A stretch of DNA of 64,000 nt, taken from contig JAPEUQ010000001.1 of assembly GCA_027946365.1 (NCBI GenBank), positions 4,030,001-4,094,000 of the forward strand. Direction: 5' to 3'. The stretch comes from Kalmusia sp. IMI 367209. Lineage: Eukaryota; Ascomycota; Dothideomycetes; Pleosporales; Didymosphaeriaceae. Below are positions 16,971-40,936 of the stretch, piece after piece; the first letter of the stretch is position 1, and each line of letters starts with the position of its first letter. The notes under the pieces were generated by a model that saw only the letters and a list, made by a program, of their open reading frames with translations, was not told where the DNA came from and ran no database searches. Position numbers and translations under genes: made by a program.

Positions 16971-19935
16971 ATGCCTGCTTCGATGACAGTCCTTCGGACT
17001 TGGCTTCTTTTGGGGTCTTCGTTAGTGCAATGGACGCAGTCGGCACCGCTTCGTAGGGCTGATGATTGTCCCGGGTATACAGCAAGTAATGTGCAGAAAT
17101 CAAATGGGGGGATCACGGCGGTTTTGACGCTTGGTGGCGCGGAATGTAACATTTATGGGACGGACCTACACGACTTAAAATTCGAGGCTTCGTACCAAAC
17201 AGGTAAGCCGGCGAGGGATTGAAGAGTGTTGCCCATCCCCGTCAGCATCAACTATCAGAAGGCTATGAACCAGAATACCTGACTACATAGCCGCACTGAC
17301 TTCATTTCACTTTGGTCAAATATTGTTACTGACATGTTGTAGATTCTCGCCTCCACGTAATTATATACGATAAAGATGAGCAAGTGTATCAAGTTCCAGA
17401 CTTCGTCCTTCCACGACCCACGGGTTCGATCAGCTCGGACGAATCGCAGGTAGAAGTCACTATTGAAGAATCGCCCTTTTCGTTTACAGTGACAAGGAAA
17501 GCGAACAAGGAGGTGATATTTACAACGAAAGGGTCCCAGATAGTCTTTGAGGATCAGTACATTCGCTTACGAACGACACTGCCTGACGATCCCAATTTGT
17601 ACGGTCTTGGAGAACATACCGATCCTCTCAGATTGCCAACTTCCAACTATATCCGCACGATGTGGAATAGGGATGCTGGAGGGGTGCCTCAAAAATCGAA
17701 CCTCTACGGGCAGCATCCTGTCTACTTTGAGCGGCGTAACGATTATTCTCATGGAGTTTTTCTTCTGAATTCGAACGGGATGGATATACTCATTAACAAT
17801 GATGATGATGGACAATATTTAGAGTATAATACTGTGGGTGGTGTCATCGACTTGTACTTTCTGGCTGGGCCATCGGCAATGGATGTCGCTAGGGAATACA
17901 GCGAGATTACTGGAAGGGCAGCTATGATGCCATACTGGGGCCTTGGCTTCCACCAGTGCAGGTTTGGATACAAGAGCGTAGACGAAGTCGCAGCCGTAGT
18001 CGCAAACTATAGCGCGGCAAACATTCCGCTGGGTATGATCAAAATTCTTCCTGTGTAGCTACTCTAACCGTTGTAACAGAGACAATGTGGACCGATATCG
18101 ATTATATGGATAGTCACAAGGTCTTTACGCTGGGCCAAAACTTCCCTCTCGACAAGATGCGCAGTCTAGTCTCGAATTTACACGCGAACGACCAACATTA
18201 CATTGTCATGGTCGATCCCGCAGTCGCATACCAAGACTATGATGCTTTCAACAAAGGCAAAGACGCGGACATATTCATGAAACATCCCGATGGTAGCATC
18301 TACAAAGGAGTCGTCTGGCCAGGCGTTACTGCATTCCCTGACTGGTTTCACGAGAAAACCCAAGACTATTGGAATAATGAATTTGCGGAATTCTTTGATG
18401 CTGATACGGGCGTGAATATTGATGCGTTGTGGATCGACATGAATGAACCAAGCAACTTTTGCGAATGGCCATGCGACAATCCGCAGAAGAGAAGTATTGG
18501 TGACGGATCTCACTTGTCTCCCCGTCAGGACAGCGGTTCAAAGAAGGGGCTCCCAAACAGGGATCTGCTGGATCCCAAATATCAGATTCATAATGCATTT
18601 GGGGTTCTCAGCAACAAGACTGCGCGGACCGACATTATTCACCAAGGTGGCTGGGCAGAATACGGTAAGTCAAATTCGAATAATCGGCTGTTGTGTAGCT
18701 CTGTGCTGATATCGGTGCGTCTAGATACACATAATCTTTATGGAACGATGATGAGCAAAACAAGTCAAAAAGCCATGCTTGCAAGGCGACCTGGACTGCG
18801 ACCTATGGTAATCACGCGCTCTACTTATCCAGGTGCTGGCACGTATGTTGGCCATTGGCTGGGCGACAATATATCGGTAAGTCGTGACATTCTTCCTGTC
18901 ATCTATGTAGCTTTGGCTGACTCATCTTATTCGGTTTAGGCATGGGACCAGTACATCATCTCGATCCGTCATCTGTTACAATTCGTATCAATCTTCCAGA
19001 TTCCGATGGTGAGTGCGCAGACTACAAGGACGATTCCCAGTTAACGAATATATGTAGGCTGGTGCAGATGTCTGCGGCTTCTTGATGGACACGAACGAAA
19101 ACCTCTGCGCTCGATGGACAACCCTAGGGAGCTTCTATCCCTTCTATCGTAATCATAATGTTGATGGAGCGATCTCGCAGGAAGCCTATCGATGGGAGAG
19201 TGTAGCAGCCGCAGCCCGGAAAGCCATTGACCTGCGATACAGACTGCTCGACTATATATATACTGCCATGCATCTGCAAACCAAGGACGGCACGCCGATG
19301 CTCGCTCCTATCTGGTAAGTGTTTTCACTCAAGTTTTGGCTTAGACTCATCTCTCACACCTTCGTAGGATGCACTACTCCAATGACCCGGCCACACTCGC
19401 CATTGATGCACAATTTTTCTTCGGGCCCGCTCTTCTAGTCAGCCCGGTCACTGAGAAGGATTCAGACTCGGTGACTTTCTACTTGCCGAACGACATTTTC
19501 TACGACCTCTTCACTCTCAAACGCGTGACCCCAACTGCCACAAAGACTACCTACTCCGGCCTCAGCACTAGCGACATACCCGTGCACATCAAGTGTGCCC
19601 ACATCATTCCCATGCGTGTTTCCAGCACTAATACTACAACTGCACTGCGTACTCAAGATTTCGAACTAATCGTTGCTCCAAATGGCGACGATAAAGCTTG
19701 GGGTAAGTTGTACTTGGATGACGGCGTAAGTATTGAGCAGGATGGCGTTAGTGAAATTGAGTTCACATACGATGGGGGTAAGCTTAAAATGGACGGGACA
19801 TTCGGGTATGACGCGAAAGTTGGAATTAAGACTGTGACTGTGCTGGGCGAGGGAGACCCAGTCAAGTATGAGTTGGACGAAAAATTGAGTGAGGCATGGG
19901 AGCACAATGTTGGGAGCTTGAAGAAAAGCAGCTAA
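16971..19935 (+). CDS. agdC: Secreted GH31 alpha-glucosidase (agdC type)
   Basis: Seven exons: 16971-17202, 17343-18032, 18080-18664, 18725-18876, 18940-19008, 19058-19314 and 19368-19935. All phases agree; 850 residues. The N-terminus is a signal peptide (basic MPASMTVLR, then [12 protein letters not shown], cut near TQSA). GH31 enzymes release glucose from maltose and starch fragments outside the cell. Seen here: the N-terminal beta domain starting [22 protein letters not shown] and [15 protein letters not shown]. Next come the barrel entry [12 protein letters not shown] and the nucleophile Asp427 in [33 protein letters not shown] carries the acid/base Asp550, and [19 protein letters not shown] and [12 protein letters not shown] follow. 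Several Asn-X-Ser/Thr sites fit a secreted glycoprotein. One arginine context near the RP-TRS strand differs slightly from relatives (LRPMVITRS). No frame break. Confidence 0.97.
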
Positions 19936-37782: not shown

Positions 37783-38331
37783 AGGGCGTTGAAATGCACA
37801 TTTTTGAAGGCATTAGCGAGCATAGTCCGGAGTTGGGAAACGGTGCATATTGATGGACGCATTGCAGCAGATATGATACCTTCAATTTTTTGATTCATAG
37901 GGTTGATATGAACAGACTTGCATAAACGACCACTGCAGTCTGACAAGTAAAATATAATCTAGTATGTGTTAGTCAAAATTAGCATCATAGCATGGGGGTG
38001 GGCTGAAAGCGTTCTATCATGATGCGCACGACATACTGTTTTTCTCACAGTGACCGCGATTGTACCAACAGTGTTTAGGTCTATGAGATCAGTTAATTCT
38101 CTTCATCAAATTTCCGTGCTAGCGAATGATTTTTAGCTCTGAAGACGCTATCTCCACCCCTGCCCGTGACTCATGCTTAGGCACCACCTCTCGTTTGTTC
38201 CCCCACATTGCGAAAATTTTGCAGACCAAAGCTATCACTCTCTCTGTTACTTTGGCGTTGTTAACCTATCTCTAACGATATGTATTTTGCAGTTCAATCT
38301 CATTTCAACAATTACTAAGCAATTGGAACAA
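37783..38331. other. Intergenic region before the tRNA gene
   Basis: No protein gene is seen. AT-rich sequence leads into the tRNA-Asp gene. Confidence 0.5.
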
Positions 38332-38476
38332 TCTTCCTTGGTCTAGTGGTCATGATTTCCGCTTGTCAAACGTCCTACGACGTTAACAAGCGCGGGAGAC
38401 CGGGGTACGTTAACTTCCATTCTGAACATAGACACCATTCCTAACTTGTGAAAAGGTTCGATTCCCCGAGGGAGAG
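38332..38476 (+). tRNA. tRNA-Asp (anticodon GTC) with anticodon-loop intron and T-arm insertion
   Basis: Acceptor strands TCTTCCT (38332-38338) and AGGGAGA (38469-38475) pair with one G-T wobble; the discriminator is G38476. The anticodon stem TCCGC pairs with GCGGG, and the loop reads TTGTCA, giving anticodon GTC. A normal intron of about 22 nt follows position 37 (about 38369-38390). The T arm is CGGGG / TTCGATT / CCCCG once the 51-nt segment 38405-38455 is removed. That segment starts GTACGT, has CTAAC at 38441-38445 and ends AAAAG. Pol III signals are intact: A box TGGTCTAGTGG at 38339-38349, B box GGTTCGATTCC at 38455-38465, and a T6 terminator at 38484-38489. The A-B spacing drops from 106 to 33 if both introns are discounted. 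A disrupted tRNA pseudogene is the main alternative. Confidence 0.85.
38405..38455 (+). other. Spliceosomal-type intron inside the tRNA-Asp T stem
   Basis: 51 nt with donor GTACGT, branch CTAAC ten bases before the acceptor, and AG at 38454-38455. Its exact removal joins ACCGGG to GTTCGATTCC and restores a perfect T arm. Size and signals equal those of the mRNA introns in this window (for example 22675-22726). Confidence 0.7.
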
Positions 38477-38483
38477 TAAATAC

Positions 38484-38489
38484 TTTTTT
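38484..38489 (+). terminator. Pol III terminator (T6) of tRNA-Asp
   Basis: Six T residues starting eight bases after the tRNA 3' end, the usual RNA polymerase III stop signal. This supports an active gene. Confidence 0.8.
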
Positions 38490-40936
38490 GGCATTTGTTC
38501 GACTCGTCACTGCGAAGAGTCGGTTTTTTTGTTTTGCTTAATTCACGCTAGAGCGTTTAAGGTCTTCGCTTTTTCCAGTTTGAACAAATGTTCATTGAGG
38601 TCATGGGATTGGAAGGCGCGTGCCCGAGCGCTACTGGGCCGTGCACCTGCTAAAAGTTCCCTGGTCGCTGCCTCCGGCGGTAGGTTCCTTCTATATCTAC
38701 TCCCCCCGAGGGAAAGACTTCATTTTAGTCCTATATGTTGCTCTTTGCCTTTCAAATGTCGATGTTGCGCTGCGTTTTGGATAGTGGAGCAGTGTGTGTG
38801 GTGTAGGCGACACTTCGGCAGCGACAATCTTTTTTGGTCTTAGCAATCTGTAGATTTTCATAAATGATAATAAACGACGACTAATATTTGGACTGATCAG
38901 CAGGTAAAGGGGGAAAAAGTATCTGAGATGAGTGGGCTGAGAATCTCGTGATAGACAAACAGGAAGATTGGAATCTGCATAGATCATCAGAAAGCGATTG
39001 ATATTCAGGGTCATAAACGTTGATCTTCACTAGAGCAGCCTATGATCAGTGAATCGGCCACTTCGCAAATGAAAGAAAAGGGGTGAAAAGTATTATGCTG
39101 TGCTGAACGAAGACATGAATAATCGTACGCTGTGAACGCATACTCCCTAACTTCCCGTGCGCAGTTTTAACGATTGCTGCATCGGTTGCTCACTCGCCAC
39201 AGGTGTCGCCATCTTCCTCATTACAAGAACCTAATAAATGATCTGTTGCGCAGAACATTGCATGCATCCAAGAAACGCCAAGTCCTTTGCCGCATCCTTT
39301 TTTTCGTGCGTATCACGATCAGGCCAACAAGGCCACTACAATGTCGCGTGTTACATGTGCTATACTCTGATCATGAGCCGTGTAGTTGGTTTTAAGGATT
39401 ATTAGCATGTTTCATACGATGTTGTCAAAGTGTTCACTTTCGGTTCCTTCGACGGCTGACCCGTACCAGAGGAATCAGATGCCTCCAAGGATGATACTGT
39501 TCGTTAATTTTTATGAAGGCCTTTGATGCAACGTAGTCGCCCCACATCATTCAGGACCCCTTGAGTGAGCTCTCTTCCATCCTGAGATTGCACGGCTGGG
39601 CGCCCGGATTCACAAACTCATCAAATTCAAAATTCACCCAGGATGAGCTGCAGGGATTCAACCAAATAAAAAAAAAACGAGATCCTCATCTATATCTCCG
39701 ACCGGGGAAATGGGAACGCGAGAATTACGGGGTCCAGGGTGTCGTAGAAGACACTCTTCATCTCTTCGACCCACCACGTCGCCGACCCACGCAGATCCAG
39801 GATCTACGCGACAAGGAGTGGGATACGCACTGGGATGCGTCCGCAACTATCGTATCATGCCGTCTTCCCCCCTACCTTCGAATCTTCCAAAGCCTTCGAG
39901 GCCCACCATCGTACCATGCCACGCAGGTGCAGGCCCGCGCAGGTGCCGCCGGTAAGGATACCGCTGCACGGCACCTGCAGCACATCGTTGCTTGTCAGTG
40001 TCGAGCCACACGCCCGCTTACCCCTGAGCTAGAACGAGTCGCAGGCCCACTCATTCTCCTTGTCTTGACGCAGGCTCCACCCCGCTCCCCCAACTGGGTG
40101 CATCCCCCTCTCCCCTGGGCAGGGCGTTGTGCTAACCGCGCGGATGGCATCCCGTAACCATGGTTTTGAGCGCGCGGCACAGAGATTAGAAGGTTTGATA
40201 AACGGATGCACAGCGTGCGTGGACATGTGTGGCTAGGCTTCGTGGAGAGCGCGGCTCTCAAGTTGAAACGACCGGAGTGTGCCCCGGGGGGTGAGATTTG
40301 TTGAAGTGGCGAGTTGCGTGGCATGGACTGATGGATGGAAGGGAAAGTCACAAGCGGCGCGGATTGAGATTTTTTCCTAGATCCGTTGGGCGGGAGTCGG
40401 GCCGATGCTCACCGAAGTCACACTGGCCGAACCGAGCGGAATGTACAAGTCGTAGCAGTAGGCTGTTGAAGTGTAACTATGGGAGAGGGCTATGGGTAAG
40501 AAGAGAGCGGAGATAAATGTGGGGGGTGCCAGCTTCGGTGGGAATAATGACCTATGCTGAAGTGAACATGGACTTGAATGAATATACTAGTGGCTCGAGG
40601 ATGGTAAATGCGTGACTTGGTATTGTTCAAACTCCCTTTTGAAAAATCATCAACCATACTTATAGGTACGTAGAGAACAAATTTTAACGAGATGATGTAG
40701 ATTTATTGGTAGGTCTATGAGATAAATCGTCGTTGAAAATGCAGTTCTATGCTGCTTGGTATCATAAGGTTCTACGGCTCTTCTCTAAGGGAGCCTATGA
40801 CTTAGGTAAAAGAAAAAAAGGCGCCATTTGCATATGGGCCAGAATAGTAGTAAAGAGAGTAACGCCGGTTGCTATGCCGTGAGGATCAATAAGGATCCAA
40901 ACTCCAAAAGGAAATCAAAGTTGAAGGGAAACACGT
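38490..40936. other. Intergenic region with one doubtful ORF
   Basis: About 2.4 kb. The plus frame 39561-40157 begins with TTG, not ATG. It has some protein-like composition early (FTQDELQGFNQIKKKRDPHL) and then becomes low-complexity, so I do not call it. No RNA gene other than the tRNA is seen. Confidence 0.4.

Follow-up and report, generated by a model that had tools for sequence, protein, structure and literature searches.

Splicing of transfer RNA (tRNA), by an endonuclease and a ligase, and splicing of messenger RNA (mRNA), by the spliceosome, are taught as separate processes. Introns are known in the U1, U2 and U5 genes of basidiomycete yeasts. Here we describe a nuclear tRNA-Asp(GTC) gene at positions 38332-38476 of a 64,000-nucleotide (nt) stretch of the ascomycete Kalmusia sp. 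IMI 367209 (contig JAPEUQ010000001.1, positions 4,030,001 to 4,094,000 of the forward strand; hereafter the window), the T stem of which is interrupted by an insert resembling an mRNA intron. Among the closest described counterparts is the intron that PMC10484740, citing Tani and Ohshima, gives for U6 small nuclear RNA (snRNA) of Schizosaccharomyces pombe, which is likewise an mRNA-type intron in a short structured RNA made by RNA polymerase III (Pol III), and its splicing from such an RNA is established in this fission yeast (PMC10484740). U6, however, is a component of the spliceosome, whereas the introns described here interrupt tRNAs, the genes of which contain A and B boxes, and tRNA-Asp has a canonical intron besides. 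Introns with GT-AG ends and CTRAC also occur in fungal U3 small nucleolar RNA, again an independently transcribed structured RNA, and differ from one paralogue to another, although the host there is U3 and not a tRNA; a 2017 paper named U3 and U6 as the only small structured RNAs then known to be frequently interrupted by introns (PMC5832005). Spliceosomal introns of ascomycete 18S ribosomal RNA (rRNA) (Cubero 2000; Bhattacharya 2000; cited in PMC11889510) similarly have a host other than mRNA, but it is rRNA rather than tRNA.

Ectopic introns in the D, anticodon and T arms have been described in the nuclear tRNA genes of Cyanidioschyzon merolae (PMC9602550), where, as here, a T-arm intron can stand beside a canonical one; site 53/54 of C. 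merolae is also the site used by tRNA-His in Kalmusia. Those introns have bulge-helix-bulge motifs, whereas in the tRNA inserts described here no full motif was found and spliceosomal signals are present instead. An earlier sequence-only reading of the window had been aware of no precedent for a spliceosomal-type intron in the T arm of a nuclear tRNA gene. As T-arm introns as such, of endonuclease type, are known in C. merolae, novelty cannot be claimed for the site, and would lie in the spliceosomal type of the intron. No earlier report of spliceosomal introns in tRNA genes was found in full-text literature, most of which was judged by title and start of abstract and which covers few subscription papers, and the string "spliceosom" does not occur in the available parts of a tRNA-intron review (PMC4090602) and a paper on disrupted tRNAs (PMC4390854).

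The gene at 38332-38476 is very probably a functional, Pol III-transcribed tRNA-Asp(GTC) gene carrying two introns, a canonical one at position 37/38 that would be handled by endonuclease and ligase, and a U2-type spliceosomal one in the T stem. Exon 1 (38332-38368 (+), from the sequence and from ARAGORN on the spliced form) comprises the 5' strand of the acceptor stem, the D arm and the anticodon stem-loop to base 37, with the anticodon GTC at 38365-38367 (+). It is followed by the canonical 22-nt anticodon-loop intron (38369-38390 (+), reported by ARAGORN as an insertion at 37-38 of length 22) and by exon 2 (38391-38404 (+), sequence and ARAGORN), which holds base 38, the 3' strand of the anticodon stem, the variable loop and T-stem bases 1-4. 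The 51-nt spliceosomal-like intron (38405-38455 (+); GTACGT ... CCTAAC ... AAAAG), defined by sequence, ARAGORN and comparison of four copies, sits between T-stem bases 52 and 53. Its 5' splice site GTACGT is at 38405-38410 (+), its branch-point motif CTAAC at 38441-38445 (+), ending 10 nt from the intron end, and its 3' end reads CCTAACTTGTGAAAAG. Exon 3 (38456-38476 (+), sequence and ARAGORN) contains the last T-stem base, the T loop, the 3' strands of the T and acceptor stems and the discriminator G. The A box (TGGTCTAGTGG, 38339-38349 (+)) and the B box (GGTTCGATTCC, 38455-38465 (+)), which we take to be such from their consensus, are intact, as is the T6 Pol III terminator at 38484-38489 (+); the first G of the B box is the last base of the intron.

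In the unspliced window, neither ARAGORN nor Rfam (the latter up to E=1 on 38200-38900) gave a tRNA at 38332-38476. When 38405-38455 was taken out, ARAGORN called tRNA-Asp(gtc) with a 22-nt intron at 37/38, and when both introns were taken out it returned a full cloverleaf with five T-stem pairs. The coordinates of the sequence-only reading, its restored T arm and its intact Pol III signals were thus all confirmed, allowing for a slippage of the insert by a few bases which leaves the product the same. What would be looked for in a functional gene, namely a GTC cloverleaf after splicing, A box, B box, terminator and conserved mature sequence, is present in this one.

Identification of further copies was undertaken in the genome assembly (42.8 Mb, 30 contigs). 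A search with the whole 145-nt gene gave four full copies, on contigs C1, C23, C26 and C8, all of which have both the anticodon intron and the T-stem intron. The mature 72 nt are identical in all four, whereas the T-stem intron varies in 12 of 51 columns (Fisher p 1.1e-5) and the anticodon intron in 11 of 22 (Fisher p 1.0e-8). Within the T-stem intron the donor GTACGT, the branch region TCCTAACTTGT and the last five bases AAAAG are invariant. Identical exons beside drifting introns are, at the level of sequence, the pattern of a used gene and not of a pseudogene; since all four copies carry the insert and agree in every mature base while their introns vary, the window gene is not a lone decayed copy. 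The mature tRNA-Asp sequence, used as a query genome-wide, matched pieces of these four genes and two 3' fragments, and nothing else. A pattern scan for an insert-free T arm gave two exact places, the same 3' fragments, and two with three mismatches, around which no tRNA was seen by eye. None of the 65 ARAGORN calls (some repeated) in 229 extracted loci was an uninterrupted tRNA with GTC or GTG as its anticodon. These loci are those left once 13 loci of contig C22 were dropped, a contig which carries its own uninterrupted tRNA-Asp and tRNA-His. We take C22 to be the mitochondrial contig, from its tRNA cluster, and its tRNA-Asp and tRNA-His to serve the organelle.

These results bear on the explanation that the interrupted genes are pseudogenes, with the real tRNA-Asp encoded elsewhere. 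The tRNA-intron review lends this some prior weight, as eukaryotic tRNA genes with an insertion in the D or T arm are there mostly one among many synonymous genes and supposed to be pseudogenes, nucleomorphs and C. merolae excepted (PMC4090602), and the tRNA-Ser and tRNA-Pro genes described below are indeed single interrupted copies next to insert-free ones. Against it, every one of the four nuclear tRNA-Asp and two nuclear tRNA-His genes found is interrupted, the introns of the Asp genes drift beside identical exons, the Pol III signals are intact, and the only other nuclear matches to tRNA-Asp are the two fragments. We regard this explanation as extremely unlikely; for tRNA-Asp it was rejected on the presence of the insert in all four nuclear copies found together with their identical exons. 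The sequence-only reading had itself named intact tRNA-Asp genes elsewhere, with drift in this copy, as the pattern of a pseudogene, and the opposite was found.

At least 11 tRNA genes, covering six isoacceptors and six positions, are interrupted in this way: four for Asp, two for His, two for Ala(CGC) and one each for Ser(AGA), Trp and Pro(CGG). At the sequence level there is strong support for an intron of spliceosomal type in a tRNA gene transcribed by Pol III, and the finding extends well beyond tRNA-Asp. A tRNA profile search (RF00005), in which 63 of 1270 first-look candidates were scored, gave 63 matches in the genome, 18 of them on C22, and three stood out among the remainder; as so few candidates were scored, 11 is a lower bound. 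The two tRNA-His(GTG) genes (L086, L087) have inserts of 69 and 71 nt at 53/54 and are the only genes matched by a mature tRNA-His query, and tRNA-Ser(AGA) (L084) has a 54-nt insert between the variable arm and the T stem. The remaining genes came from pattern scans: tRNA-Trp(CCA) (L164, C23:759080-759500 (-)) with 54 nt in the D loop at 15/16, the tRNA-Ala(CGC) genes (L170, L179) with 50 and 53 nt at 25/26, and tRNA-Pro(CGG) (L222) with 54 nt between anticodon bases 34 and 35. Insert-free paralogues carry the predicted joint in the case of Ser (L063) and Pro (L175); the insert is absent from a third Ser(AGA) gene (L024) too, but its T stem differs, so that it lacks the exact joint string.

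Removal of the insert led to an ARAGORN tRNA call in all 11 genes, with the expected anticodon in 10; the spliced Trp gene was given a four-base anticodon, probably because of an A31.C39 mismatch in its anticodon stem. Unspliced, none of the eight Asp, His, Ser and Trp genes was called, and all three Ala and Pro genes were called with a misplaced intron. Some tRNAs thought to be "missing" from fungi may therefore be interrupted likewise. As every nuclear tRNA-Asp and tRNA-His gene found is interrupted, our sequence data suggest that the mRNA-splicing machinery may also be needed to finish essential tRNAs.

All 11 inserts have GT...AG ends with a donor of the fungal GTRNG type (GTANG in each) and a CTRAY ending 8-11 nt before the terminal AG. 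Their lengths range from 50 to 71 nt and their longest T run is 3. The acceptor is CAG or TAG in seven genes (both His, Ser, Trp, both Ala, Pro) and AAG in the four Asp genes. A random insert would match GTRNG..CTRAY(6-15)..AG with a probability of ~2e-5, and when seven introns (Asp1, His1, Ser, Trp, both Ala, Pro) were shuffled, the pattern was reached at frequencies of 0 to 5e-5 each. In the window, a heuristic for mRNA introns gave seven candidates, of which four look sound (47-62 nt) and three unsound; one, at 18033-18079, is independently supported in that the pieces on either side of it belong to a single GH31 Pfam domain. The tRNA inserts can be set against these four and against four U2 and U6 introns (49-58 nt), both ranges being exceeded by the His introns (69, 71 nt). 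A TTTT run occurs in one of the seven heuristic window introns and in none of the 11 tRNA introns, a comparison which decides nothing. Self-splicing group I and group II introns were rejected as candidates, as 50-71 nt is far too short for either.

Introns with the same signals were also identified in snRNA genes. The U2 copy on contig C29 (L090, C29:1641600-1642600) has introns of 58 and 49 nt, both absent at the exact joint from the copy on C6 (L092), and in the U2 copy on C28 (L093) the first of the two C29 sites is occupied by an intron of 51 nt. A probable third U2 intron, near the 3' end, is common to the C29 and C6 copies and is the only intron of the latter. The U6 gene on C28 (L091, C28:664000-671000) has a 50-nt GTGAGT..CTGAC..CAG intron, and a 5'-truncated U6 copy 4.4 kb away has the exact spliced joint, like a retrocopy of spliced U6. 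In these four U2 and U6 introns (58, 49, 51 and 50 nt) the branch distance is 8-11 nt, matching the tRNA inserts. By their sequence, then, introns of spliceosomal type are present in at least ten tRNA genes besides the one in the window as well as in U2 and U6, and are more widespread among the small RNAs of this genome, including at least one further Pol III RNA.

It could be argued instead that the T-stem insert is an ectopic endonuclease-type intron, with a bulge-helix-bulge fold as in C. merolae and nucleomorphs, and that its GT..CTAAC..AG is coincidental. In archaea, endonuclease-type introns are known at 53/54 and 25/26, and C. merolae has them at 53/54 too (PMC4090602, PMC9602550). Three of the four pairs of the central helix, with G-T allowed, are reached by the Ser, Trp and both Ala inserts, each in a single register. 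All four pairs are formed in none of the 11 genes, in any same-product register tested, and the Asp T-stem introns form 0-1 of them. This fold had been named in the sequence-only reading as evidence that would count against a spliceosomal intron; no full central helix was found, although the test is of limited power because the canonical anticodon introns of the same genes score just 1-2 of 4. Further evidence against an endonuclease-type intron comes from the position of the Asp T-stem insert outside 37/38, and from the donor, branch and acceptor pattern common to the inserts of six different tRNAs and the U2 and U6 introns. We consider this explanation very unlikely.

The sequence-only reading had also proposed a recent, introner-like insertion, that is, a mobile intron, and introner-like elements are known in Dothideomycetes (PMC4457414). 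Neither "recent" nor "introner-like" was borne out. As the four copies share a T-stem intron which has since drifted, it is older than the tRNA-Asp duplications. The genome search with the intron-bearing Asp gene gave, at its sensitivity, just the four tRNA-Asp copies, and the introns of different tRNAs, as well as those of the two Ala(CGC) genes, are unlike each other beyond chance-level matches of 8-9 bases; this genome-wide search was for the Asp intron, the other tRNA introns being compared with the window and the extracted loci. We consider a recent mobile intron extremely unlikely. Pattern scans for relatives in a collection of viral contigs and one of genome contigs, neither of them fungal, gave no match.

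A number of points weigh against a functional gene with a spliceosomal intron and have to be set beside this evidence. The 3' splice site of the Asp T-stem intron is AAG and not YAG in all four copies, whereas, according to PMC5832005, all U3 intron acceptors except one are YAG. The likeness of the insert to the mRNA introns of the window, as put forward in the sequence-only reading, stands for size but not for signals as independent support, since the heuristic used to find those introns demands the same signals. By eye, spliced tRNA-His has a T27.C43 mismatch, and A31.C39 in spliced tRNA-Trp is a further one. The Ser and Pro genes, with one interrupted copy each beside insert-free ones, could be dispensable. 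Two scans for introns directly preceding a B box returned 78 and 45 places, fewer than the 94 and 84 of their controls, so that such patterns by themselves are not enriched. Screening of 65 of those 123 places (7 previously known, 58 extracted) gave one new gene, Trp, which turned up partly by luck because its intron lies in the D loop. A B-box scan gave 108 places against 66 in its control, and among the 100 listed the two Ala genes and the Pro gene were found; 77 of these 100 were newly extracted, the other 23 being already known, on C22 or extracted before. The tRNA inventory is accordingly incomplete (63 of 1270 candidates, 65 of 123 places and 100 of 108 places covered) and the assembly is in 30 contigs, which leaves room for an uninterrupted tRNA-Asp that was missed.

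If the tRNA-Asp gene is expressed as we propose, Pol III would make the precursor from the intact A and B boxes, and U1 and U2 would recognise the GTANG and CTRAY of the insert, as of the other tRNA inserts. The T-stem intron would then be removed by the spliceosome as a lariat, by analogy with the Pol III transcript U6 of fission yeast. The T arm would fold only after this removal, and the tRNA endonuclease would remove the 37/38 intron as in the usual model. In C. merolae, introns of the D and T arms are supposed to leave before the anticodon intron (PMC9602550).

A wider scheme, which we advance tentatively and hold to be possible though somewhat short of probable, is that in this lineage the spliceosome is obligatory for every cytosolic tRNA-Asp and tRNA-His, with tRNA-Asp needing endonuclease and ligase too, and that reverse splicing placed the introns in abundant structured RNAs (tRNAs, U6, U2), from which DNA copies were afterwards made. 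Under such gain and copying, retrogenes of spliced copies would be expected, and both the U6 fragment and the tRNA-Asp 3' fragments, which lack the intron, have this appearance. Since the target is abundant as RNA yet only ~72 nt long, unrelated introns at six tRNA positions also allow a stringent test of whether introns are gained by reverse splicing.

The two tRNA-Asp 3' fragments (L044, C23:298906-298955; L045, C26:487028-487077) each consist of an intron-free 31-nt 3' half of tRNA-Asp fused to a 19-nt stretch, which by eye (unscored) resembles the branch-recognition region of U2. They are nearly identical, and each lies at most 0.7 kb downstream of a tRNA-Asp gene. They may have arisen by template switching as a retrocopy of spliced RNA, be left over from an ancestor without the intron, or form a small functional unit. 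In the window itself, positions 38620-38720 hold a stretch common to the C23 locus, ending in an apparent deletion remnant (CCCCGAGGGAAAG) of an intron-free tRNA-Asp 3' fragment.

The D-loop intron of the Trp gene splits its A box, and the bases that the box thereby lacks seem to be provided by the start of the intron, GTAAGG. The Ala(CGC) introns of L170 and L179 occupy the same 25/26 site with no sequence similarity found between them, and represent either an old intron or parallel gain. Another tRNA-like gene (L213, C23:1747480, (-)) is split by a long inverted repeat, apparently an insertion resembling a miniature inverted-repeat transposable element.

Behind all four tRNA-Asp genes a trailer of ~80 bp is kept (38490-38567 in the window), with a GTTCGAYTC motif resembling a B box and a second run of at least 7 T; the window copy had no Rfam match. 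The window also contains a UPF1 gene; across 99% of the query it is 97% identical to a Pseudopithomyces chartarum protein (Pleosporales, Didymosphaeriaceae).
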